Below the pieces are notes generated by a model. That model was not told the DNA's origin. It worked only from the letters and a program-made list of their open reading frames with translations, and made no database searches. From an uncultured Hyphomicrobiaceae bacterium (GTDB lineage: Bacteria; Pseudomonadota; Alphaproteobacteria; Rhizobiales; CALHAX01): a stretch of DNA of 39,820 nucleotides. The position numbers were made by a program, and so were the translations under genes. Positions within the stretch are counted from its first letter, which is position 1. Each line of letters begins with the position of its first letter. The stretch covers positions 1 to 39,820 of the forward strand of contig CALHAX010000079.1 in the NCBI GenBank assembly GCA_937931785.1, read 5' to 3'. Shown one piece after another: positions 4,470-19,652 of the stretch.

Positions 4470-4900
4470 GGACACAGACGCTCCTGAGGATTTGTAAAGT
4501 CCCCCCGAATCTGCGTTCAACCCTGCTAATTAAGGGTTAAAATGCCGGTTTCCAGCTACGCCCAAATCCCCTGCTTCGAAAGTCAAGACGCATCAGTGTG
4601 GGTGTGATCGCTATCCACCACAATCCTCATGAAGAGAAGATCGTACACCGGCGTGTTTTGGCCGCAAACGTTCCATAAGCCTGCTGGAATGGCGTAGAAG
4701 CGCATAAATGTGCGTTCTGCATTGGCAAGCTGGTACAACGACGGTAGATCAACTGTTGATGGCCGTCGTCCAACGATCTGCTTGCTGGGCCGCCTGAGTA
4801 TTTTGGGGTATGCAATCCTGACGGCAGAAAAAGTGTTGAGAGCCCTTTTATCTGTTATTACATAAGGTTGCAGCAGGGCAGGACTGGATTCGTCCGGGGC
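4470..4900. promoter_or_regulatory. Divergent intergenic region between hpt and GPR-like gene
   Basis: This 431-bp stretch holds no convincing gene. At 4530-4540 the sequence TTAAGGGTTAA contains, on the minus strand, TTAACC, which equals one half of the CtrA site TTAA-N7-TTAA. The second half is not at the right spacing, so this is only a half-site candidate. A sigma70-like promoter facing the GPR-like gene is listed separately. The overlapping minus-strand open frame at 4583-4921 starts inside the opposite gene and shows no family features. Confidence 0.4.
4836..4864 (+). promoter_or_regulatory. Candidate sigma70-type promoter for the GPR-like gene
   Basis: TTGAGA (4836-4841), a 17-base spacer and TACATA (4859-4864) lie 36 bp before the ATG at 4901. 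The -35 element is close to consensus and the -10 element matches it moderately. Position and spacing are right, but it was found by eye only. Confidence 0.35.
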
Positions 4901-7507
4901 ATGAGTCAAGACACACAACACGCGAAAGACGCAGACAGCGCGGCAGGTGATGCCGCTGCTGCCGTTTCTCTTGACGAACCGAAGCCCGAAACGGGTTTAG
5001 AGACATCATCCTTGCAATATGACACTTCTGCCGCGTCCTCATCCGATGCACTGGAACCGACCGTTGGTCCGGTCCCTGTTCGCCGCGTCGGGCGCCGGCG
5101 CGCAGCCGGGCCTTCGCGCACATCGGCTGCCGCAAACGACGATGTTCCGTCAATTGGCGGACTGATCTACGCACTGCAGCAAAAGCCCTCGCGTCGCCCG
5201 TTCAAGATTGCGATGATCATGTCGGCCATTTGGGCCGCAGTGGGCACCCTGCTCGTCTGGCTTACGATTGCATCTGACCTTGCGATCGACATTCCGCTAT
5301 CCGAAGTGCTTGCACGTCCACAAACCATTCTGATCGCAACGTCTCTACTCGCACCGATTGCATTATTCTGGTTCATGGCGGTGCTCGTCTGGCGCGCTCA
5401 GGAGTTACGCCTGATGTCATCAGCCATGACGGAAGTCGCTGTCCGACTGGCAGAGCCGGACAAAATGGCAGAGCAGTCCGTTGCATCCCTCGGCCAGACC
5501 GTTCGTCGACAGGTGATGTCGATGAACGACGCGATCAACCGGTCGCTTGGGCGTGCTGGTGAGTTGGAAGCCCTTGTGCACAATGAAGTGGCCGCACTTG
5601 AACGGTCGTATCACGAAAACGAAGTTCGCGTGCGCGGGCTGATCAACGAGCTTGTCAGCGAGCGCAAATCGCTTACCAACAATTCCGATCGAGTGAGTGA
5701 CACCATTCGTGGCATCGGGCTGGAAGTAACGCGGGAAATCGTGGCCGCCAGTGAAGTCGCTGCCAAAGCGCTGTCCGGCGCAACAACAACGTTGACGCAG
5801 GAAGTTCAGAAATCCGGCAGTCAGCTGACGGCACGCATCCAGGCAACAAACGATCAGACGGCGCACCTGATGTCAGAGAGTGGAAACTCGCTTCTCGCAT
5901 CGCTCGGCGACATGAACAAGCGGATCGGCGTCGAGGTTCCGGCACTTCTGGACAAGCTCTCCGGCGAGCAGACCCGCCTGACGAAGATTGTCGAGGGTGC
6001 TGGCCGTAATCTGGCCGCCCTTGAGACAGCACTTGGCGAACGCGTGGAAAGCCTGGAAGGATCGCTCGGTGAGAAGACCGAGGTGCTGCGTGATACGCTG
6101 CAAAACAAGCTCAAGGATTTCGACGACACATTTTCCGACAAGGCGCGCCAACTTGATGCTGCTATTGGCGAGAAAATGGGGCAATTCGACTCATCGATCA
6201 CCTCCAAGGCCAAGACATTCTACCAGGCTCTCGACAAGGCCGGCTCCGAGATCGATCGAACCATGCTGGAACGTACCCGCTCAATCGAAACGAACATGCA
6301 GCGCGCAGCAGGACAAATAGAAAGCCAAATCCAACGGCAGACGACGCATCTGGATGCCAGCATGCAACGCCAGGCTGCCCAGGTCGATGGGACCGTCGCC
6401 AAAGGTATCGAAGCGGTGCAGCGTTCAAACGAGAATATCACGACGCAGTCATTGCGCACACTCGATGGCCTGTCACAGCAGGGCGAATCGTTACGGGATA
6501 TTTCTGAAGGTCTCCTTGGGCAAATTCGTGATCTGACGGAACGCTTCGATCAACAAGGCCAGTCGATTATGCGTGCAGCCCATGATCTGGAATCCTCAAG
6601 TTTCAGGATTGATACCGTGCTCGAAGCGCGTCATGCAGAATTATCAACTCTGCTTGATGACGTTTCCTCCAAGGCAGAACTGTTGGACGGTGCGATGCGA
6701 TCGCAGAGTGATGGCCGCTTGAACAGCGGCGCAAACCTGCGCGAGCGTTATAACCGTGCCGCACAGGAAATGGTACGCGATCAACGATCAGCACCGCGCC
6801 CGACACGTACGTCCTCAAATACGAGCGAAATCGATCAGATGCGGTCGAAATTGCGCAGAGAACTGGATCACCGGCCTGAAAACGACGGAGGACCTTCGGA
6901 AGCCGCCCTGCAGGAACAATTGCACGCTCTCGAAGCGCTGTCGAATTTCAGTGCCGAACAAGCATCATCGCGACAAATACAACGCACAGCCCCTGCCCAG
7001 AGCACACGATCTGAGCAGAGGCAATCGCGCCCTGCCCCCCAGGACAACCGTAACGTATCGGGTGCCGCATCAAACGAACGCTGGAGCCTTGGCGATTTAC
7101 TCTCACGCGCATCTGACGACATGCCGATCCCCGCGCCCGTTGCGACAAGCAACCAGTCCAATAATGACAGCAACAACGTTGCACTTGATCTGAAAAACAT
7201 GGCCCGTGCCATTGATATGCAAACAGCCACCGACATCTGGTCACGCCTGAATGCCGGAGAACGCAATACGCTCAGTCGATCCATCTACACGATGGACGGT
7301 CAAGTAACGTTCGATGAGATCGGACGACGGTTCTCCTCTGACATGGCATTCCGCAATACCGTCAGCCGCTATCTCGTTGATTTTGAGCAACTGCTCCGCG
7401 AAGTTGACCAAAACGACCACGGTGGCAATATCGTGCGCAACCACCTGGTGTCAGACATGGGACGCGTTTATCTCCTTCTCGCACATGCGAGCGGCCGTCT
7501 GGCGTAA
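4901..7507 (+). CDS. Membrane-anchored coiled-coil protein, Growth Pole Ring (GPR)-like
   Basis: This 868-residue protein has four parts. Residues 1-95 are Ala/Ser/Pro-rich and include an Arg-rich patch RRVGRRRAAG. Two transmembrane helices lie near 101-125 and 141-164. A long helical coiled coil (about 190-600) contains Gln/Glu/Lys-rich repeats such as GEKTEVLRDTLQNKLKDF, of the kind databases label apolipoprotein A1/A4/E-like. A low-complexity Gln/Ser/Pro linker leads to a compact C-terminal domain (about 768-868) with GERNTLSRSIYT and FDEIGRRFSSD, ending LLAHASGRLA. That last domain resembles the C-terminus I recall for GPR proteins of Hyphomicrobiales, which mark the polar growth zone and are far longer (about 2,100 residues in Agrobacterium). 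The ATG at 4901 is preferred over an upstream TTG at 4868. The GPR link is inference from architecture and recalled motifs. Confidence 0.72.
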   Translation: MSQDTQHAKDADSAAGDAAAAVSLDEPKPETGLETSSLQYDTSAASSSDALEPTVGPVPVRRVGRRRAAGPSRTSAAANDDVPSIGGLIYALQQKPSRRPFKIAMIMSAIWAAVGTLLVWLTIASDLAIDIPLSEVLARPQTILIATSLLAPIALFWFMAVLVWRAQELRLMSSAMTEVAVRLAEPDKMAEQSVASLGQTVRRQVMSMNDAINRSLGRAGELEALVHNEVAALERSYHENEVRVRGLINELVSERKSLTNNSDRVSDTIRGIGLEVTREIVAASEVAAKALSGATTTLTQEVQKSGSQLTARIQATNDQTAHLMSESGNSLLASLGDMNKRIGVEVPALLDKLSGEQTRLTKIVEGAGRNLAALETALGERVESLEGSLGEKTEVLRDTLQNKLKDFDDTFSDKARQLDAAIGEKMGQFDSSITSKAKTFYQALDKAGSEIDRTMLERTRSIETNMQRAAGQIESQIQRQTTHLDASMQRQAAQVDGTVAKGIEAVQRSNENITTQSLRTLDGLSQQGESLRDISEGLLGQIRDLTERFDQQGQSIMRAAHDLESSSFRIDTVLEARHAELSTLLDDVSSKAELLDGAMRSQSDGRLNSGANLRERYNRAAQEMVRDQRSAPRPTRTSSNTSEIDQMRSKLRRELDHRPENDGGPSEAALQEQLHALEALSNFSAEQASSRQIQRTAPAQSTRSEQRQSRPAPQDNRNVSGAASNERWSLGDLLSRASDDMPIPAPVATSNQSNNDSNNVALDLKNMARAIDMQTATDIWSRLNAGERNTLSRSIYTMDGQVTFDEIGRRFSSDMAFRNTVSRYLVDFEQLLREVDQNDHGGNIVRNHLVSDMGRVYLLLAHASGRLA

Positions 7508-7881: not shown

Positions 7882-8682
7882 TCACAAACGACCCGTACTC
7901 CCACGACGTCCTATTAACAAATCTGGACTGACAGGTGGACGTGCATTCGGGTCGGTTTCGCGTTCGTCGGTTTGCGTATCGCGTAACGGCAGATCGTTTT
8001 CATCAGGACGCTGCTGTTCCTCACGGCGGAACCGTGGACGTTGTGGGACCGAGCGCCGGGCGTTGACCTTCATGCGCACTCGACCAGCCCACGCGGCCAC
8101 ACGTGGTAAAACATCCCGCATACTCGCGTTCAACGCCAACACGCCGGATTCTGCATCATCACGCAGCGCACGTGTCTCATCCGTGAAATTTCGTTCGACA
8201 ATCACGCGGGCGCGTCGCTGATCGATAAGCCGCACATAAAGATTGACCTTGGCAACAGGCGCACTGTTTTCCAGCTCAACATGGAACGCGCGGATTTCAG
8301 TTGCCACAGACACATCCGCATCAAGTCGTTCGCTACTACTGGCAACAGCCGCGAATTTCCCAGACCGCCCCAGCGCTTCAATCATGCGCGCTTGCACCAA
8401 CCGTGGCAGTTGATCCGACCAGGACGCTTTGCCGAAATATCTGATTTCCGCTTGCGAGGGACGAATGGCAATTCGGTCCCCTGCGAGGGAGCGCAGAGCA
8501 ACAGGCTCGTTCACAACGAGCTGCAATCCACGGCCACGATGGTTCTGTGCTTGTACGGCACTGGCAACCGACATGAGGTCATAGGTTTGTGGCGGTTCAG
8601 CAGGACCAACGCGCGCAAGCGCACAACCAGCAAGCACAAGCGCTGCCGTCGCACATACCGTGACTGCACGCAAATTGCTCAT
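7882..8682 (-). CDS. ABC transport auxiliary lipoprotein, PqiC/YmbA-like
   Basis: This 266-residue lipoprotein has a signal peptide ending in the lipobox LAGC, with Cys20 as the lipidation site. The following region, with QTYDLMSV and LQLVVNEPVALRSLAGDRIAIRP, is typical of the auxiliary component found with MCE-type ABC systems (the PqiC/YmbA superfamily). It is expected to sit in the periplasm, anchored in the outer membrane, and to contact the MCE protein. The last 60 residues, from about 205, form a Pro/Arg/Asp-rich tail likely to be disordered. It is the last gene of the Mla-like operon, 59 bp after mlaD. Its ATG at 8682 fits the signal peptide exactly. Confidence 0.85.
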   Translation of the reverse strand: MSNLRAVTVCATAALVLAGCALARVGPAEPPQTYDLMSVASAVQAQNHRGRGLQLVVNEPVALRSLAGDRIAIRPSQAEIRYFGKASWSDQLPRLVQARMIEALGRSGKFAAVASSSERLDADVSVATEIRAFHVELENSAPVAKVNLYVRLIDQRRARVIVERNFTDETRALRDDAESGVLALNASMRDVLPRVAAWAGRVRMKVNARRSVPQRPRFRREEQQRPDENDLPLRDTQTDERETDPNARPPVSPDLLIGRRGSTGRL

Positions 8683-8741: not shown

Positions 8742-10067
8742 CTATTGGGGATTGTATTCTGGTACGGGGGAGCCACCAAACAGCAAACGCTGTGGATTAC
8801 GGTCTAATCCGTCAAGAACCCTATCGAGATTACGCGCGAGTCGGCGTCCGTCCCGCATGAACAGTTCCAACTCGGCAAGGCTGCGTTTGGTGGATCGTGT
8901 CAGGCTGTCGGCATTCTTGCCGAAACTGTTCTCGATCTGGCCCGAAAGCTTACGGAACGACGCGATGGCTTCGCGGGCATCAGCCAGCATTGATGTGCCG
9001 TCCTCGGAGCCCATGAACGTACTCACCTGATCGAGTGTACGATCCATTTTGACGGCGGTCAGCTTGAGTTGAAGTGACAACGCCTGCACATCCTTGAAAA
9101 TGTTGTCTACACTGCCTTTATTGCGATCCAGTGATGCCGTGAACGCTTCGACATTGCTGACAGTTTTGGTGATCCGGTCCGCATTTTCATCCACAAGCTT
9201 TTCGACCCGCGCAACCACTTTGCCCGCGTCCTTGAGCATCTGACCAGTGCCTTTGAGTTCTTCTGTCACCTGTCTGACGTTTCCGATCACCGTCGTTATT
9301 TCACTCTTGTTGGTAGCCAATTCCCCCGTGAACGCTTCAACATTGTCCAACGTCTTGGCGAGACGGCTTTCATTCGATGAGACAACGTTGTCGAGGCGAT
9401 CGACCAAAGCTTGTGCGTTATCCAGCAGTGGCTCGATCTTCTCGAACTTCTTTGCGAGGCTGCGCACGTCACGAATGACGCCGGTGATATTTCCCTTGTT
9501 GGCAGCCAGTTCACCAGAGACAGCCTCGATGTTGTTGATCGTGCGGCGTATGGGTTCACTATTGGCGAGCAGGATCTCGTTCATGCGGCTGATGGCGGTA
9601 TCCGCATTTCCAAGCACCTTCGGGGCAGCTTCAAACAGACCGGCTGCCGTGCCGGGTTCGACCGGAATGCGTGCCTCTCGACGTGACGTTGACGCTTGCA
9701 GGATCGGCATGTCCTGTGTGCCTGCCGTTAACTGGATCGATGCGCCTCCCGTCAACCCCTTGCGTGCAATCCGGGCGCGTGAGTTTTCACGTACAGGTGT
9801 CGATCGCGCAATCTCAATCATGACACGGACACGTGTTGTATCAACCGCATCGATATTCAACGCGCTAACGCGTCCAACGCGTACACCATTGAACAGAACT
9901 GTTGATCCCCTCACGACACCATCCACCGGACCAGGGAAAAGGATCGCGTAGGATTTTGCTCCAGCTCCGGCACCAAAGTTGTTGATCCAGTACAAAAAGC
10001 CGAATCCGGACGCCAAAAGTCCGAGCACGCTCAGGCCAATAAGAAAGTGGTTGGCACGGGTTTCCAT
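8742..10067 (-). CDS. mlaD: MCE-family lipid transport protein, MlaD-like with long helical tail
   Basis: This 441-residue protein carries phospholipids or related lipids across the periplasm as part of an ABC system. A single N-terminal transmembrane helix (about 8-28) is followed by one MCE domain (about 38-120) with the GSTVLFNGVRVGRV signature. After it comes about 280 residues of predicted coiled coil, far longer than the tail of E. coli MlaD (about 183 residues in total). The tail contains three copies of a 63-residue unit beginning near residues 167, 230 and 293, recognisable by TINNIEA, TLDNVEA and TVSNVEA. The ATG at 10067, with GGAG six bases upstream, is preferred over a GTG at 10070. 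It follows mlaF after 48 bp. Confidence 0.9.
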   Translation of the reverse strand: METRANHFLIGLSVLGLLASGFGFLYWINNFGAGAGAKSYAILFPGPVDGVVRGSTVLFNGVRVGRVSALNIDAVDTTRVRVMIEIARSTPVRENSRARIARKGLTGGASIQLTAGTQDMPILQASTSRREARIPVEPGTAAGLFEAAPKVLGNADTAISRMNEILLANSEPIRRTINNIEAVSGELAANKGNITGVIRDVRSLAKKFEKIEPLLDNAQALVDRLDNVVSSNESRLAKTLDNVEAFTGELATNKSEITTVIGNVRQVTEELKGTGQMLKDAGKVVARVEKLVDENADRITKTVSNVEAFTASLDRNKGSVDNIFKDVQALSLQLKLTAVKMDRTLDQVSTFMGSEDGTSMLADAREAIASFRKLSGQIENSFGKNADSLTRSTKRSLAELELFMRDGRRLARNLDRVLDGLDRNPQRLLFGGSPVPEYNPQ

Positions 10068-10115: not shown

Positions 10116-10919
10116 TCAGGACGCAACGGCACGGGCACGGGGTCCGCAGAAGTACTCTCGTATCCACGGATGAGACGGAGCGGCCTGTAACAAGCTCGGT
10201 GTCCCGGTACTCACGATTTTCTTGTCTGCCAGAACGGCGACGCGATCACACACCGCAAAAATACTATCGAGATCGTGGGTCACCATATACACGGTGAGTC
10301 CAAGCGCCCGCTGTAATTTTCGGATCAATTGGTCGAAGTCCGCGGCTCCTATCGGATCAAGGCCGGACGTCGGTTCATCAAGGAAGACAATTTCGGGATC
10401 GAGCGCAAGTGCCCGCGCCAACCCGGCGCGCTTGCGCATACCGCCAGATAGCTCGGAGGGATATTTACACGCGGCTTCCGGCGGCAGCCCCACAAGCGCA
10501 AGCTTCAGCATGGCGAGTTCGTCCCGCAGACGCTCCGGCAAATCCAGATGTTCCCGCATGGGCACCTGAATATTCTGCAGAACAGTCATGGCGCCGAACA
10601 AGGCACCGTCTTGAAATAGAACGCCCCATCGAGCATCCATATCAAGGCGTTCTGCAGATGTCAGACCGCTGGTATCACGTTCAAAGACCTCGATCACTCC
10701 GCCATCGGTCGTCTCAAGCCCAGTAATGCACCGTAATAATACGGACTTCCCCTGTCCCGAAGCCCCGACAATTCCCAAAACCTCACCACGTTGGACATCG
10801 AGATCCAGGTCATGAAAAATCACCTGGTTACCAAACCGTTTGACTAGGCCACGCACACTGAGAACGGGAGGCACGTTGTTCCCGGCACTCGGCGCGTTTG
10901 GGGACTCCATCGCAGTCAT
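10116..10919 (-). CDS. mlaF: ABC transporter ATP-binding protein, MlaF-like
   Basis: This 267-residue ATPase energises the lipid transporter. Walker A is GASGQGKS (52-59), the Q-loop region is LFQDGALF near 101-108, the ABC signature is LSGGM (157-161) and Walker B is VFLDE (178-182). The D-loop SGLDP follows, and the switch His lies in VTHDLDSIF. The LSGGMRKRAGLARAL form is characteristic of MlaF-type ATPases. The ATG at 10919 lies 3 bp after the mlaE stop, which indicates translational coupling with the permease it serves. Confidence 0.95.
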   Translation of the reverse strand: MTAMESPNAPSAGNNVPPVLSVRGLVKRFGNQVIFHDLDLDVQRGEVLGIVGASGQGKSVLLRCITGLETTDGGVIEVFERDTSGLTSAERLDMDARWGVLFQDGALFGAMTVLQNIQVPMREHLDLPERLRDELAMLKLALVGLPPEAACKYPSELSGGMRKRAGLARALALDPEIVFLDEPTSGLDPIGAADFDQLIRKLQRALGLTVYMVTHDLDSIFAVCDRVAVLADKKIVSTGTPSLLQAAPSHPWIREYFCGPRARAVAS

Positions 10920-10922
10920 CCC

Positions 10923-12113
10923 TCAAATACCAATCGCGGAGAGAAAGAGAGCAAAGACCGCATCAAGAATAATCACCACGAAGATCGATTTCACAACAGC
11001 ACTGGTCACGTGGAAACCGAGGGATTCGGCACTACCACGCACTTTCAAACCCTCAAGACATCCGATCAGTGCAATGCTGATGGCGGCAAGTGGCGTTTTG
11101 ATCATACCAACGAAGAAGTGCCGGGGTTCGATCGAATCGTTCATGCGGATGATGTAGTCGAGCGGCTCCATATCGAGCATCAGCACGGCAACGATGCCGC
11201 CACCCAGCAGACACATCATATCAGCGACAAATGTCAGAAGCGGCAAGGCGACAAGCAGTGCCAGCACACGTGGAACGACCAGCGTTTCAAGGGGATTAAT
11301 CCCTAGTGTCCGCATCGCATCGATTTCTTCACGCATTTTCATGGAGCCGATCTCTGCCGTGAACGCAGATCCAGACCGCCCCGCCACCATGATGGCCGTA
11401 AGAAGCACGCCGACTTCGCGTAGGGAGAGAATAGCGACGAGGTTCACCGCATAGGCCTGTGCGCCATAGTATTCCAACTGCACTGCGCCCTGCTGCATGA
11501 CGACGGCACCAATCAGAACGCAGATCAGCGAGATGATCGGAAGGGCGCGCAATCCGGCATGTTCAAGGTGGTGCACAAACGACGTTGCGCGAAATCGCCA
11601 GGGCCGCACAACCGTTGCCGCAATGCTGCCCGTCACCGCCCCCAGAAAACTCACGAGCGCATAGCTGAACGATGCAACATGCAAGGATGCACGTCCAAGA
11701 TCGGTAATGATGCTTTCCGGTTTCCCCTCACTTCTGATCAGATTATCCGGATCCGGACTATGCGCTCGCACCTCATCGAGCAGGATGCCGTGCGGTTCGA
11801 GAACTCCAACAAACCGGGATGGAAGGCCAAGATTGCTCCACAAATCCGCGGTCTTGTTCAACAGCCAAGCTCCGGCCGTATCGAGACGCTCGAGACCACT
11901 GAGATCAATTTCCCCACGCTCGGCTGAATGTGCCGCGCGATGAAGTCGCAATCCCGCGAGCACCTGTTCTATTCCGGCCACCTCGCGTACGGTCCAGCAG
12001 CCTGTGACAGCCAGCCTGAGCACATCGCCATCATCCATAAGCGCAACGCCCGGCGCGCACCCGCGCGATGGCAACCCTTTATGGGTTTTGAAACGGTTGC
12101 GCGACGCAGTCAT
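10923..12113 (-). CDS. mlaE: STAS-MlaE fusion permease
   Basis: This 396-residue inner-membrane permease has an N-terminal STAS domain (about 25-110, with EIDLSGLERLDTAGAWLL) fused to an MlaE domain (about 150-395). The MlaE hallmark is present: EVGVLLTAIMVAGRSGSAF, followed by EIGSMKMREEIDAM. In E. coli the STAS part is the separate protein MlaB, so the fusion covers both roles. The ATG at 12113 is taken over a TTG at 12116. An AGAGG lies 11 bases upstream. It is the first gene of the operon mlaE-mlaF-mlaD-lipoprotein. No mlaC or mlaA gene is in the window. Confidence 0.93.
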   Translation of the reverse strand: MTASRNRFKTHKGLPSRGCAPGVALMDDGDVLRLAVTGCWTVREVAGIEQVLAGLRLHRAAHSAERGEIDLSGLERLDTAGAWLLNKTADLWSNLGLPSRFVGVLEPHGILLDEVRAHSPDPDNLIRSEGKPESIITDLGRASLHVASFSYALVSFLGAVTGSIAATVVRPWRFRATSFVHHLEHAGLRALPIISLICVLIGAVVMQQGAVQLEYYGAQAYAVNLVAILSLREVGVLLTAIMVAGRSGSAFTAEIGSMKMREEIDAMRTLGINPLETLVVPRVLALLVALPLLTFVADMMCLLGGGIVAVLMLDMEPLDYIIRMNDSIEPRHFFVGMIKTPLAAISIALIGCLEGLKVRGSAESLGFHVTSAVVKSIFVVIILDAVFALFLSAIGI

Positions 12114-12344
12114 CAAAGTGACGGCCTCTTCAAGCTCACTCCAGCTCTCACATCAATTGTTGTTCAGATGCAAATGACCGGGAAGAGAAGGCGTTGATTC
12201 GATTGAACTTCAGTCTAACGCCTGCTGCCATCAGGCCTGCAGTAAAATAAAGATTTCCCCGACAATGCGCAGCGATTCATCAGCTCACGCGAACCGCAGG
12301 ATGTCCGTGCTGATCAATATTCGAAGCAAGCTATCATTGATGAT

Positions 12345-15809: not shown

Positions 15810-17126
15810 TTACTGGAAGAAGCCGCCGAAGATCGGATGGTCTGCATCCAGTTTGGATTTCATGCTGAAAGAGATGATGTCGACCGACGCTTCGACATTA
15901 CCACTCAACGTCAATGCAGGGTTCAACGCCGTCGAACGCTCGAATCGCGCTTCATCGACGAACACATGCGTGTAAGCAAAATCGAGCGTTGTATGATGGT
16001 TCAGCTTGTATGTTGCGCCAGCACTTACCCAGAAACGATCAGAATCTGGAACAGGCGTCAGACGTTCTGAAGCATTCTGAATTGGCGATTCTTCGTACGC
16101 CAAACCTGCGCGGATCGTCAGTGAGTCGGACATATCATACTCCGCACCGATTGAGGCAAACCACGCATCGTGCCAATTGGCATCAATCGTCGCCGTACCA
16201 CCCGCGAGCATAGGGTTGATGCCGGTCAGGTCATTCAACGAAACCGCGTCGAAATCGGACCAATTCGTCCATTCAAATGTACCCATAAGGCGGAGACTTG
16301 GGGAAACCGCCTGACGAATGCTGAATGTAATAATGTCAGGCGTTGTGAGGTCCACATTGTTTGAAGAGGCAGGAAGCGGACTTCCAATTACTCTTAGGTC
16401 ACCCTCGAGTGTTTGTTTGATTTCAGAGCGGTACCCAATCCCGATCTGCGTGCCTTCTGCCGGATTCAAGTACAGTCCAAGTGTGCCGCCAAAGGCAATA
16501 TCGTCTCCTTCATAGACGGCGCTTGCAGCTCCCGGACCAACACCGGTTGCAAACTTGAGTTGCGCATCCATGTACTGGATTTGAACACCGGCACCAATCG
16601 TAACACCGGGCATAACCTGATAGGCGAGCGTCGGAGCCGCATTGACCGTGAAAATTTTCGAGCGCCGTGCAATAGTTGCACCCTGCCAGTCCCTGTCAGC
16701 TGGCTTTGTCACAAGACCAAACGGTGAGTTGATGCTCAGGCCAACCCATAAGTCGTTATTGAGCTGATGCCCGAAGTAGCTAGCAGGGATGACCGCATCT
16801 TCGGCAATATCACCACTGCTTGACCCGCCGGGACTTATGCCTGCCAGTGAATTATTGGCCCCCGGCACAGGGTCAGCTTCCAGATTGACCCGACCAATGA
16901 AGATGGCCGCATGGCTTTCCGTGTTCGTGCCTTCGGATGCGCCCAGTGCAGCCGGGTTCCAGAACATGGAGCTGAGATCACCACCAGCCGCGCTGCCAGC
17001 AAAGGATGCGCCTTGAGACGATGTCGACTGCTCGCGAACCGCGAAGCCGCCAGCATGTGCAACAGTCGTTGTTGCAATGACGCCCGCAGCCGTCGTCATC
17101 AGAAAAGTTTTGAAAGTCTTTTGCAC
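15810..17126 (-). CDS. Outer-membrane transport protein, OmpP1/FadL family
   Basis: This 438-residue protein has an N-terminal signal peptide (about 1-25, ending TVAHA). The mature start GGFAVREQSTSSQGASFAG is typical of the FadL N-terminal hatch, and SSMFWNPAAL follows. The remainder alternates polar and hydrophobic residues, as in a beta-barrel, and ends in FGGFFQ. FadL-type channels admit long-chain fatty acids and other hydrophobic compounds by lateral diffusion. The start is a GTG at 17126 with GGGGGAA seven bases upstream, which gives a clean signal peptide. An RND exporter gene lies 204 bp upstream on the same strand, and two terminator hairpins follow. Confidence 0.9.
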   Translation of the reverse strand: MQKTFKTFLMTTAAGVIATTTVAHAGGFAVREQSTSSQGASFAGSAAGGDLSSMFWNPAALGASEGTNTESHAAIFIGRVNLEADPVPGANNSLAGISPGGSSSGDIAEDAVIPASYFGHQLNNDLWVGLSINSPFGLVTKPADRDWQGATIARRSKIFTVNAAPTLAYQVMPGVTIGAGVQIQYMDAQLKFATGVGPGAASAVYEGDDIAFGGTLGLYLNPAEGTQIGIGYRSEIKQTLEGDLRVIGSPLPASSNNVDLTTPDIITFSIRQAVSPSLRLMGTFEWTNWSDFDAVSLNDLTGINPMLAGGTATIDANWHDAWFASIGAEYDMSDSLTIRAGLAYEESPIQNASERLTPVPDSDRFWVSAGATYKLNHHTTLDFAYTHVFVDEARFERSTALNPALTLSGNVEASVDIISFSMKSKLDADHPIFGGFFQ

Positions 17127-17186
17127 TGGTCTTCCCCCAACTCTCCACAGGCATGCACATTCGCACATCCCATTTTTGTTGGGAAA

Positions 17187-17215
17187 ATCTAGACACTGGC
17201 TAACGTAAGCGGCAA
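17187..17215 (-). promoter_or_regulatory. Candidate promoter for the FadL-family gene
   Basis: On the minus strand TTGCCG (17210-17215), a 17-base spacer and CTAGAT (17187-17192) lie about 60 bp before the GTG start. The match to sigma70 elements is moderate and was made by eye. Confidence 0.3.
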
Positions 17216-17267
17216 CTGATTGTTGCACCGTCATCTTTGGATTTTGTGAGCAGGCCCGAAGTCGTTG

Positions 17268-17286
17268 CAATTGTGTCACAAATGCG
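17268..17286. promoter_or_regulatory. Palindrome upstream of the FadL-family gene, possible operator
   Basis: GCAATTGTGTCACAAATGC is a 19-base palindrome around a central T with a single mismatched pair. It sits 45 bp after the RND stop and about 53 bp upstream of the candidate -35 box of the FadL gene. Its form fits a dimeric repressor or activator site, but not the CRP or FNR consensus spacing. Confidence 0.35.
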
Positions 17287-17330
17287 ACTTCGCCGCTACA
17301 ATGCAGGGGAACAAGAAATCAGGGCAGTCT

Positions 17331-19652
17331 TCATGAAGACGAATGCTGAGGTGCTTTATCACGCTCCCGCCTGGCTGTGACTTGGGCCGCCACCGCAATG
17401 ATCGCAGGCAGGATGATCAGATCAGCCAGTAAAGCGCCGATCAACGTCACCATAACAAGCGAACCGAACTGCCTCATGGCAGGCAAATCACTCAAACCCG
17501 TGACCGCCAACCCGACAATAAGCACCGCTGTCGTAAGAATCAGGACCGGACCAATGTGTGTCAGCGTTTCACGCAGGGCGGTTCTGACATCGGTCGTTTC
17601 TGTCTTCTCGATACGATAACGCGCAAGAAAATGGATGCAGTCATCCACGGACAAACCGAACGCGACAGTCAATGCGATAACGCTCGCATAACCAAGTCCA
17701 AGCCCTGACAAGTAGAGCGCCGTTCCAGCCGCAACGATAGGAAATATGTTCGGCAGAATGCTGATGCCCAGCACCCAGAGGGAACGAAACGCCAACGCCA
17801 TGATCAGGATCACCACGACAATCGCGACCATCAATCCGCGATTAAGTTGCGCGATCATGTTCGAACTCTGGTAGGCGGCAACGGCCGTCAGACCTGTCAC
17901 CTTCATGGTGATATCGGGATATTTCTCCTGCACACCCGCAAGGCTCGCCTCTAGGCTTCGCATAACGGGAACGGCACCGACGGCGTCAAGATTCGGAACC
18001 CGCCCGGTCACGAGTGTGCGGTTGGCTTTCTCGTTCAGGAAACGGCCCACAAGATTGTCAGGGAGGCGGTCGATATACGTCCCGATCTCCTTGACTTCGG
18101 TGACGCCAATACCTGCGAGCCATTGCCGAAGCGTATCAACAGACCAGACATTTCCGATACTGGGATGCTGTGTCATCACGCTGTGCACGTCCATGATGAT
18201 ATCCAGCATCTCCTGCGATCGAACGGTTTTATCACTTGGCCATTGCAGCATGACGTGAATAGGGTGTGCGCCGGTAAGACGCTCGTCCAACCGCTCCGAC
18301 GCTGAAACAGATTCCTTGTTGTTCGGGACCTGATCACTCAAGCGATAGTTCGGTACGAGTTGCCAATGCGCCAGCGCGAAAAGCGCAAAGAGTGCAAGGC
18401 CGACACGCATGACAGTGTGGTAATTGCCATCGAGCTTTTCCCCCAACCTGCGACACAGCCCCGTCAGCCAGACGATGCCCTGAGCCTTGCGTTCCTCGGT
18501 TTCGCGAAACTTTGTCTCATCACCGAGCGTCAACATACAAAGCGCCGGAACGACAAGGATCACAGCGACAAAGGCAAGGAGTGTCGCAACCGCACCCGCT
18601 CCTCCAAAGGTGGCGATCAACGCACTGTCCGTGAGCGTCAGCGTCAGCATCGCGATGGACGTGGAGATGGAGGTCAACGCGCAGGCGGGACCGACGGTGT
18701 GCACGGCGTGCAACACGGCGGCCTTGCGGGATCGCCCATCCCTGATCCCGCGCCGAACAGCAAAGATCATGTGCATGGCATCCGAAAAGGCAATCACCAT
18801 CACGAGTGCGGGCAGAACGTTGGTGAACGAATTCAGCTTGAAGCCGGTCAGGCCAAGCAGCCCCATGGTCCAGATGACTGCAAGCGCCGGGCACAGCGCT
18901 GCAATCATGACAAGGCCGACGCGGCGGAACAACGCCAGACAGAGCAGGATACCCATGGCGAAACCAGAAACGTTGTAGATGATCCTGTCGCGGGCGATGG
19001 CTTGGCGTATCTCAAGCTGCATCACCGGTGCCCCTGCGAGTTGCACGGAGAGCGGTTCACCATCGAGGATGTCTTCAACGGTGGTGCGGATTTCGCCAAC
19101 AGATTCTATCAAGCCACGTGACGCAAAATCCGCCTTGTTGAGACTGATAACGAACAAGACGAGATCACCCTGCGGGCCGGAAGCAACAAGTTTGCCCTCG
19201 ATGAGCGGGTTCTTGAGGATATTCTGGATAACGGCATCGTGCGCGGGACCGGCAACAAGATCATCGGGGATGAGCGGCGGAGCGAAGCCTTTCTCATTCG
19301 GTTTGTCCCGGACGGAAAATATCGAAATCACCCCCGCGGAGGAGTCGGTAAGTTCCAGGTCGAAATGCAGCAGACGCAGCTTTTCCAACCGCTCTGGTGT
19401 CAACAGATCCTTGCCTTCGATGATCGCCAGGACGTCGAATTCGCTCGCCGGGAAATGATCGCTCATTTCGTCATAGTTGCGGAATTCAACATTGGAGGAG
19501 CGGAACAATTCGCTGAGAGTGTCGACAGAGCCCAACCGACTAACGCCGTATCCACAAATGGCCGTGACAATCGCGAGCACAAGCAATGTGATGCGCGGAG
19601 CATGCACGGCCAGGCGGCCCAGACGTTCGAATCCGAATCCAATGGTTGACAT
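17331..19652 (-). CDS. RND superfamily exporter, MMPL type
   Basis: This 773-residue membrane protein has the two-fold RND layout. A first membrane helix near 18-38 is followed by a large periplasmic loop. A block of helices near residues 225-375 (with AFSDAMHMIFAVRRG) is followed by a second periplasmic loop, and a second block near 630-760 contains GLSVDDCIHFLARYR. The Asp-containing segments are the proton-relay positions of the family. MMPL-type members export lipids, hopanoids or hydrophobic compounds across or out of the inner membrane. The ATG at 19652 begins directly before the first helix. Its neighbour is a FadL-type channel, so a joint role with hydrophobic substrates is possible but unproven. 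Confidence 0.87.
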   Translation of the reverse strand: MSTIGFGFERLGRLAVHAPRITLLVLAIVTAICGYGVSRLGSVDTLSELFRSSNVEFRNYDEMSDHFPASEFDVLAIIEGKDLLTPERLEKLRLLHFDLELTDSSAGVISIFSVRDKPNEKGFAPPLIPDDLVAGPAHDAVIQNILKNPLIEGKLVASGPQGDLVLFVISLNKADFASRGLIESVGEIRTTVEDILDGEPLSVQLAGAPVMQLEIRQAIARDRIIYNVSGFAMGILLCLALFRRVGLVMIAALCPALAVIWTMGLLGLTGFKLNSFTNVLPALVMVIAFSDAMHMIFAVRRGIRDGRSRKAAVLHAVHTVGPACALTSISTSIAMLTLTLTDSALIATFGGAGAVATLLAFVAVILVVPALCMLTLGDETKFRETEERKAQGIVWLTGLCRRLGEKLDGNYHTVMRVGLALFALFALAHWQLVPNYRLSDQVPNNKESVSASERLDERLTGAHPIHVMLQWPSDKTVRSQEMLDIIMDVHSVMTQHPSIGNVWSVDTLRQWLAGIGVTEVKEIGTYIDRLPDNLVGRFLNEKANRTLVTGRVPNLDAVGAVPVMRSLEASLAGVQEKYPDITMKVTGLTAVAAYQSSNMIAQLNRGLMVAIVVVILIMALAFRSLWVLGISILPNIFPIVAAGTALYLSGLGLGYASVIALTVAFGLSVDDCIHFLARYRIEKTETTDVRTALRETLTHIGPVLILTTAVLIVGLAVTGLSDLPAMRQFGSLVMVTLIGALLADLIILPAIIAVAAQVTARRERDKAPQHSSS

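Follow-up and report, generated by a model that had tools for sequence, protein, structure and literature searches.

The described system closest to the locus analysed here is Mpc, the Mla-Pqi chimeric transporter (MpcEFDA) of Brucella abortus, which is needed for growth on deoxycholate, was recovered as a whole complex by pull-down, and has been modelled with a hydrophobic channel (PMC12436622). The B. abortus MpcD model in that paper has a length of about 25 nm. Mpc is conserved in Hyphomicrobiales, where its channel varies strongly in length, and its authors offer periplasm width or tilt as reasons for this variation (PMC12436622). The available part of their report mentions a repeating coiled coil, with neither a unit length nor a copy number.

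PqiABC of Escherichia coli also combines a coiled-coil needle MCE protein with an outer-membrane lipoprotein, PqiC (PMC10897342); it differs in the number of MCE domains, three in PqiB, and in having no ATPase domain on PqiA (PMC12436622). In Veillonella parvula, a long MlaD belongs to an MlaEFD system with neither MlaA nor MlaC, and this elongated helical protein has been proposed to bridge the envelope, its far end being an outer-membrane beta barrel, whereas the present locus has a separate lipoprotein (PMC10665443). Mycobacterial Mce1 (PDB 8FED) likewise carries a needle of helical repeats with a hydrophobic tunnel on its MCE ring, but it is a heterohexamer with a portal domain and eight kink-separated helical repeats per subunit (PMC9882608). 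The nearest solved sequence to MpcD is PDB 13HR, considered here through its sequences and molecule names: a 312-residue MlaD-type protein in 8 chains, deposited together with a lipoprotein that is named as ABC-type transport auxiliary component and has 16 chains across 13HR and 13HS. The length and alignment of this protein fit a tail with one of the units described below, versus three in the present protein.

The locus described here is an mpcE-F-D-A operon, and the tail of its MpcD protein is most probably a coiled coil of three 63-residue units that arose by an old, in-register tandem duplication. The probability assigned to this reading is roughly 80%.

An mpcEFDA operon

The window is a stretch of 39,820 nucleotides from an uncultured Hyphomicrobiaceae bacterium (GCA_937931785.1, contig CALHAX010000079.1). 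Its operon runs from an MlaE-like permease through an MlaF-like ATPase and a long MlaD-like protein to a PqiC-like lipoprotein (Table 1), sharing with B. abortus Mpc all four families, the gene order, the long-tailed MCE protein, and the PqiC-like lipoprotein (PMC12436622). The sequence-only reading had given an incomplete operon, overlooking the fourth gene. As a PqiC-like lipoprotein stands at the operon end, the system is of the Mpc type, with its outer-membrane end supplied. It is not a Pqi system, since the protein has a single MCE domain and its partners are an ABC ATPase and a permease. The mpcD gene reads from an ATG at 10067 to a stop codon finishing at 8742, and its product is the sole match to PF02470 in the genome at E <= 0.001. 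Compared with B. abortus Mpc, MpcD has 441 residues versus 331, and the STAS domain reported on the permease part of Mpc (PMC12436622) corresponds in the window to a weak N-terminal STAS_2 match (PF13466, residues 35-89, 21.1 bits, under the cut-off of 29.2). Promoter and terminator scans returned about as many sites as in shuffled sequence.

The MpcA model has a mean pLDDT of 81.7, and Foldseek places its fold with XCC0632 (2iqi, E 7.5e-17) and PqiC (8q2c, E 1e-11). A lipobox-like motif occurs in 106 of the 111 downstream relatives, and the lipobox cysteine is invariant in 26 aligned rows, the 25 relatives among them having been preselected for the motif. MpcA also has a C-terminal extension of about 61 residues, modelled with low confidence; two of the 25 aligned relatives have 24-34 residues there and the others 0-7. 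Two features lie outside the operon. At 4868-7507 on the plus strand, convergent with it, is a gene for an 879-residue long-coiled-coil protein with a weak ZorA-like match (19.2 bits against a cut-off of 190). A FadL/TodX-type outer-membrane protein adjoins an MMPL-type transporter on the minus strand (15810-19652), a few genes from the operon.

Table 1. Positions in the window of the operon genes and of the segments of MpcD
Feature	Position	Strand	Evidence
Long MlaD-type MCE protein (MpcD), 441 aa	8742..10067	-	PF02470, E 3.8e-13
Putative N-terminal membrane helix of MpcD (residues 4-31)	9975..10058	-	AlphaFold2 helix; membrane role by analogy with MlaD
MCE domain of MpcD (residues 48-116)	9720..9926	-	PF02470 match; confident beta domain in model
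Coiled-coil unit 1 (residues 145-207)	9447..9635	-	Unit HMM trained without the window: 145-206, 60.4 bits
Coiled-coil unit 2 (residues 208-270)	9258..9446	-	Unit HMM trained without the window: 214-269, 55.5 bits
Coiled-coil unit 3 (residues 271-333)	9069..9257	-	Unit HMM trained without the window: 276-331, 46.4 bits
Conserved C-terminal tip of MpcD (residues 424-441), proposed MpcA-docking end	8745..8798	-	P426 and G432 (P0001 numbering) invariant in 32 sequences
PqiC-like lipoprotein (MpcA), 266 aa, lipobox cysteine at residue 20	7882..8682	-	PF03886, E 9.4e-16
ABC ATPase (MpcF/MlaF-like)	10116..10919	-	PF00005, E 3.2e-29; NCBIfam MlaF 188.1 bits, under cut-off 441
Permease (MpcE/MlaE-like), start uncertain (TTG)	10923..12116	-	PF02405, E 2.2e-72; TIGR00056 above cut-off

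A 63-residue repeat in the MpcD tail

The MpcD tail contains a real tandem repeat of three 63-residue units. The motifs from which a 63-residue period had been proposed begin where claimed (TINNIEA at 176, TLDNVEA at 239, TVSNVEA at 302), and the neighbouring segments align as well, with a second motif set at 185, 248, and 311. At offset 63, 54 of 234 residue pairs in the tail (145-441) are identical. The best ungapped self-match sets 145-274 against 208-337, with 45 of 130 residues identical and a BLOSUM62 score of 225. Unit boundaries were drawn at 145-207, 208-270, and 271-333, the profile used for this purpose having the window's own units in its training set. A separate unit HMM, built from 19 one-unit relatives only and with the window excluded, nevertheless finds all three units (Table 1). 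The best score among 200 heptad-preserving shuffles of the tail was 16.7 bits, and the one unrelated control, the coiled-coil protein at 4868-7507, gave no real match (-3.7 bits).

Any coiled coil has a heptad background, and that background together with a few chance motif matches might imitate a period of nine heptads. The modest identity between copies (36, 30, and 25% in pairwise comparison) and the missing DNA repeat would fit such an origin. However, the maximum self-match score was 51 under full shuffling and 90 when each residue kept its position modulo 7, and none of 2000 shuffles of either kind reached 225; the periodicity therefore exceeds the heptad background. A second test against the heptad-preserving null gave z 8.9 at offset 63 and z 5.2 at offset 126, whereas the eleven other multiples of 7 tested stayed at z 1.5 or below. 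Between fixed anchors, moreover, the length difference among relatives is exactly 63 or 126 residues. Chance and heptad background are rejected on these four grounds (shuffles, offset z scores, unit profile, and anchor distances), and such an origin is extremely improbable.

The repeat had been called exact, which holds for its spacing and fails for its sequence. Across the self-match segment the DNA is identical at 191 of 390 positions, the codon is shared at 14 of the 45 identical residues (17.2 expected), and neither Tandem Repeats Finder nor a second repeat search reported a 189-base repeat. The proposed self-alignment of the DNA thus showed no repeat, and a recent DNA duplication is ruled out. 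Because the copies are 25-36% identical and have no repeat at the DNA level, the duplication is old.

The register of the tail agrees with the proposal of a coiled coil lengthened by duplication. A continuous hydrophobic stripe crosses 28 heptads: hydrophobic residues fill all 28 positions of one heptad phase and 17 of the 28 of a second. Its hydrophobic period, 3.505 residues, is near 63/18. Together with the three units found by a profile trained on one-unit proteins and the anchor spacings of 63 and 126 among relatives, this argues for duplication in register.

A possible alternative, though one that we doubt, is that the true module is about 21 residues long, a kinked stretch of helix that fits three times into 63, and that the tail stacks six-helix bundles rather than forming a classical coiled coil. 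The needle of Mce1, with kinks between its eight helical repeats (PMC9882608), offers a parallel. Within units, offset 21 is raised, being reached by 1 of 500 shuffles for the window and by 0 of 500 for the 19 related one-unit proteins, and the model places helices at 148-169, 171-190, 192-206, 213-232, 234-253, and 255-272 (P0001 numbering), with breaks about every 21 residues. These breaks, however, fall in a low-confidence region of the model, and offset 21 is not raised across 145-352, where 89 of 500 shuffles reach it. Moreover, a length step of 21 residues appears in the window's clade only in L062, a sequence with unread bases. The 21-residue sub-repeat is weak.

A ladder of lengths among relatives

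Comparison among relatives, which the sequence-only reading had proposed, draws on 172 loci with the gene in 171, giving 153 distinct proteins, 118 of them with the window's type of C-terminus. The loci came from the best 80 of 365 relatives in a scan of genome contigs and from a search of 297 genomes, in which 265 had a match and 60 were picked by hand among the matches listed for spread of family and length; the counts below describe this chosen sample rather than natural frequencies. Between an anchor in the MCE domain and one at the C-terminus lie 43 residues in 19 of the 118 proteins (18 complete ones of 311-316 residues, plus one truncated at the end of its contig), 106 in L025, and 169 in the window. 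The steps are exactly 63: one unit in the 19, 63 residues more in L025, and 126 more in the window. The 63-residue unit thus behaves as a module of length.

Other members of the clade were lengthened by other amounts. The distance is 176 in L004 (43 + 63 + 70), with the same match coordinates in L033 (a Methyloligella sp. MAG), and 149 in L005 and L035 (43 + 2 x 53), whose internal period is 53. In L015 and its kin it is 110, and 67 is among the top periods. L036, at 143, has an excess of 100 that its own periods of 32, 60, and 53 do not fit, and three shorter members (22, 5, and -3) do not differ by steps of 63. In five of six longer forms picked by hand from the clade (the window, L025, L004, L005, L015, and L036), the excess over 43 can be made up from the three top internal periods of the protein itself, as a multiple or as a sum. 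When periods were borrowed from other proteins the mean was 0.24, and none of 20000 draws reached five.

Outside the window's clade, a 61-residue period is frequent, with distances of 165 (43 + 122, nine proteins) and 226 (43 + 183, L149), and periods of 89 (from 282 to 371), 82, and 96 also occur. The hydrophobic period tracks the unit in the tested forms with units of 53 (3.53), 61 (3.575-3.58 for three units), 63, 89 (3.565), and 96 (3.555-3.56); L137, with a period of 85 and a peak at 3.445, is the exception. Across the order, 15 of 82 distinct length pairs fit the periods, which is above chance (500 random draws averaged 4.2 and never exceeded 11). No universal length rule is claimed for the order, as the top periods of the longer protein, whether multiplied or summed, do not account for the remaining 67 pairs.

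A quick-method tree of permease, ATPase, and MCE domain (71 rows) places the window in a clade of 31 that includes the 19 one-unit forms (SH-aLRT 97), with L005 as its nearest sister (support 86). The first copies of the repeat resemble one-unit proteins most closely in the N-terminal half, and the last copies in the C-terminal half. Units were likely gained in the lineage of the window. In this tree L004, L025, and the window stand apart, at SH-aLRT values of only 85-89, and the unit identities fit shared and independent duplication in these three alike.

The giant members

In three genomes the family reaches far greater lengths. The MpcD-type proteins of L117, L118, and L119 (genomes G099, G244, and G205) are 1508, 1234, and 1038 residues long; their period is 96 residues, and L117 holds a DNA array of 3.3 copies of 288 bases. 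These proteins are read as real because they occur in three genomes of one genus code (g59) and because of the DNA array in L117. If straight, they would measure 131-202 nm, far exceeding the periplasm, and so do not fit a simple straight rod from membrane to membrane. A straight helical part could reach at most 22.8 nm in a protein with one unit; the corresponding limit is 41.7 nm for the window's protein and 202 nm for L117.

The proposed rod and its probable docking end

The AlphaFold2 monomer of MpcD (mean pLDDT 67.8, pTM 0.36) is confident in the MCE domain and mostly below 70 in the tail; the Mpc authors' own MpcD model is likewise weak there (PMC12436622). Foldseek returns Mce1 and MlaD chains; the TM-scores, taken across the whole chain, are 0.18-0.26, and because they are so low only the MCE domain is counted in the matches. 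A rod or channel spanning the periplasm, as had been suggested from sequence, would agree with the published homologues (Mpc, the long MlaD of Veillonella, and Mce1). By the same analogy, MpcD would form a hexamer with a hydrophobic lumen that transports lipids, its tip docking to MpcA.

The distribution of the tip bears on this last point. The tip motif is found in 110 of the 118 proteins with the conserved C-terminus and in none of the 35 without it, and an MpcA-like gene lies downstream in 110 of the 118 and in 1 of the 35. Three of the eight that lack this downstream gene end at most 170 bases from the end of the locus. Of the 35 proteins without the conserved C-terminus, 34 are MCE proteins that carry a fused MpcA-like domain (L085:5001-6104 and 33 loci like it, about 360-390 residues, with Pfam run on one of them), and no separate lipoprotein gene was found downstream of these 34 loci; the record title names Bradyrhizobium in 18. 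L141 lacks the tip and has a separate lipoprotein gene. Isom and others had already noted fusions of MCE and MpcA-like domains and a DUF330 gene as a common downstream neighbour (PMC5561183). This co-occurrence in sequence supports a contact between MpcD and MpcA, for which the tip would be the probable docking end.

The question of a soluble carrier

The sequence-only reading had supposed that the lipid path needs no soluble MlaC. Consistent with this, no mlaC lies among the operon genes and no MlaA match was found in the genome, so that the locus is not a classical Mla system, which has MlaC in its operon and MlaA in its genome. The supposition needs qualifying at the level of the genome, which encodes one MlaC-family protein of about 209 residues (contig C85, 25992-26435, minus strand; L003), whereas MlaC is reported absent in B. 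abortus (PMC12436622). In a sample of 101 genomes of the order, MlaC-family matches occur in 28 and MlaA matches in 20. On this evidence the tail could act as a spacer or a tether, keeping the transporter attached to the outer membrane while another carrier, such as the MlaC-family protein, moves the lipids. Against such a division of labour, the MlaC-like gene sits on a different contig, where its neighbour encodes an ABC ATPase with an ABC_tran_Xtn domain, the genome offers no MlaA match, the hydrophobic stripe of the tail is unbroken, and the lumen in the published model of Mpc is hydrophobic (PMC12436622). A tether of this kind is unlikely, and a rod that works independently of MlaC is plausible.

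Implications for length in the Mpc family

The repeat, the unit ladder, the operon, and the fold of the lipoprotein model are directly supported here, and a mechanism can be proposed around them. An inner-membrane ABC lipid transporter would use the long helical tail of its MCE protein to reach a PqiC-like lipoprotein at the outer membrane. The ancestor of this tail would have been the one-unit form still seen in relatives, lengthened long ago by tandem duplication in register. Each added unit of nine heptads would lengthen the helix by up to about 9.4 nm (63 residues at 0.15 nm each) and would alter neither the MCE ring side at one end nor the tip that docks to the lipoprotein at the other.

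Tentatively, rod length in Mpc may be a digital trait, counted in whole coiled-coil units that keep one hydrophobic stripe in phase (63 residues being 18 turns, with units of 61, 53, 89, and 96 elsewhere), and copy number may serve as a ruler for envelope spacing. The run-up to 1038-1508 residues in one genus (131-202 nm extended) would then mean that such rods bridge something beyond an ordinary periplasm or are folded back. Neither unit length nor copy number was found for Mpc or for any MlaD-type tail in the literature searched, as far as those sources were available, bioRxiv preprints and most subscription journals lying outside its scope. The machine has already been described; a rod length that changes by whole segments seems to be new, and this unit-wise variation and the giant members are what the present analysis adds. 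These features bear on how lipids cross the periplasm and on how the length of a bridge comes to suit the envelope's width. A family with rods that can differ by whole, countable units offers a natural series of lengths, and its giant members put the straight-rod model to the test.
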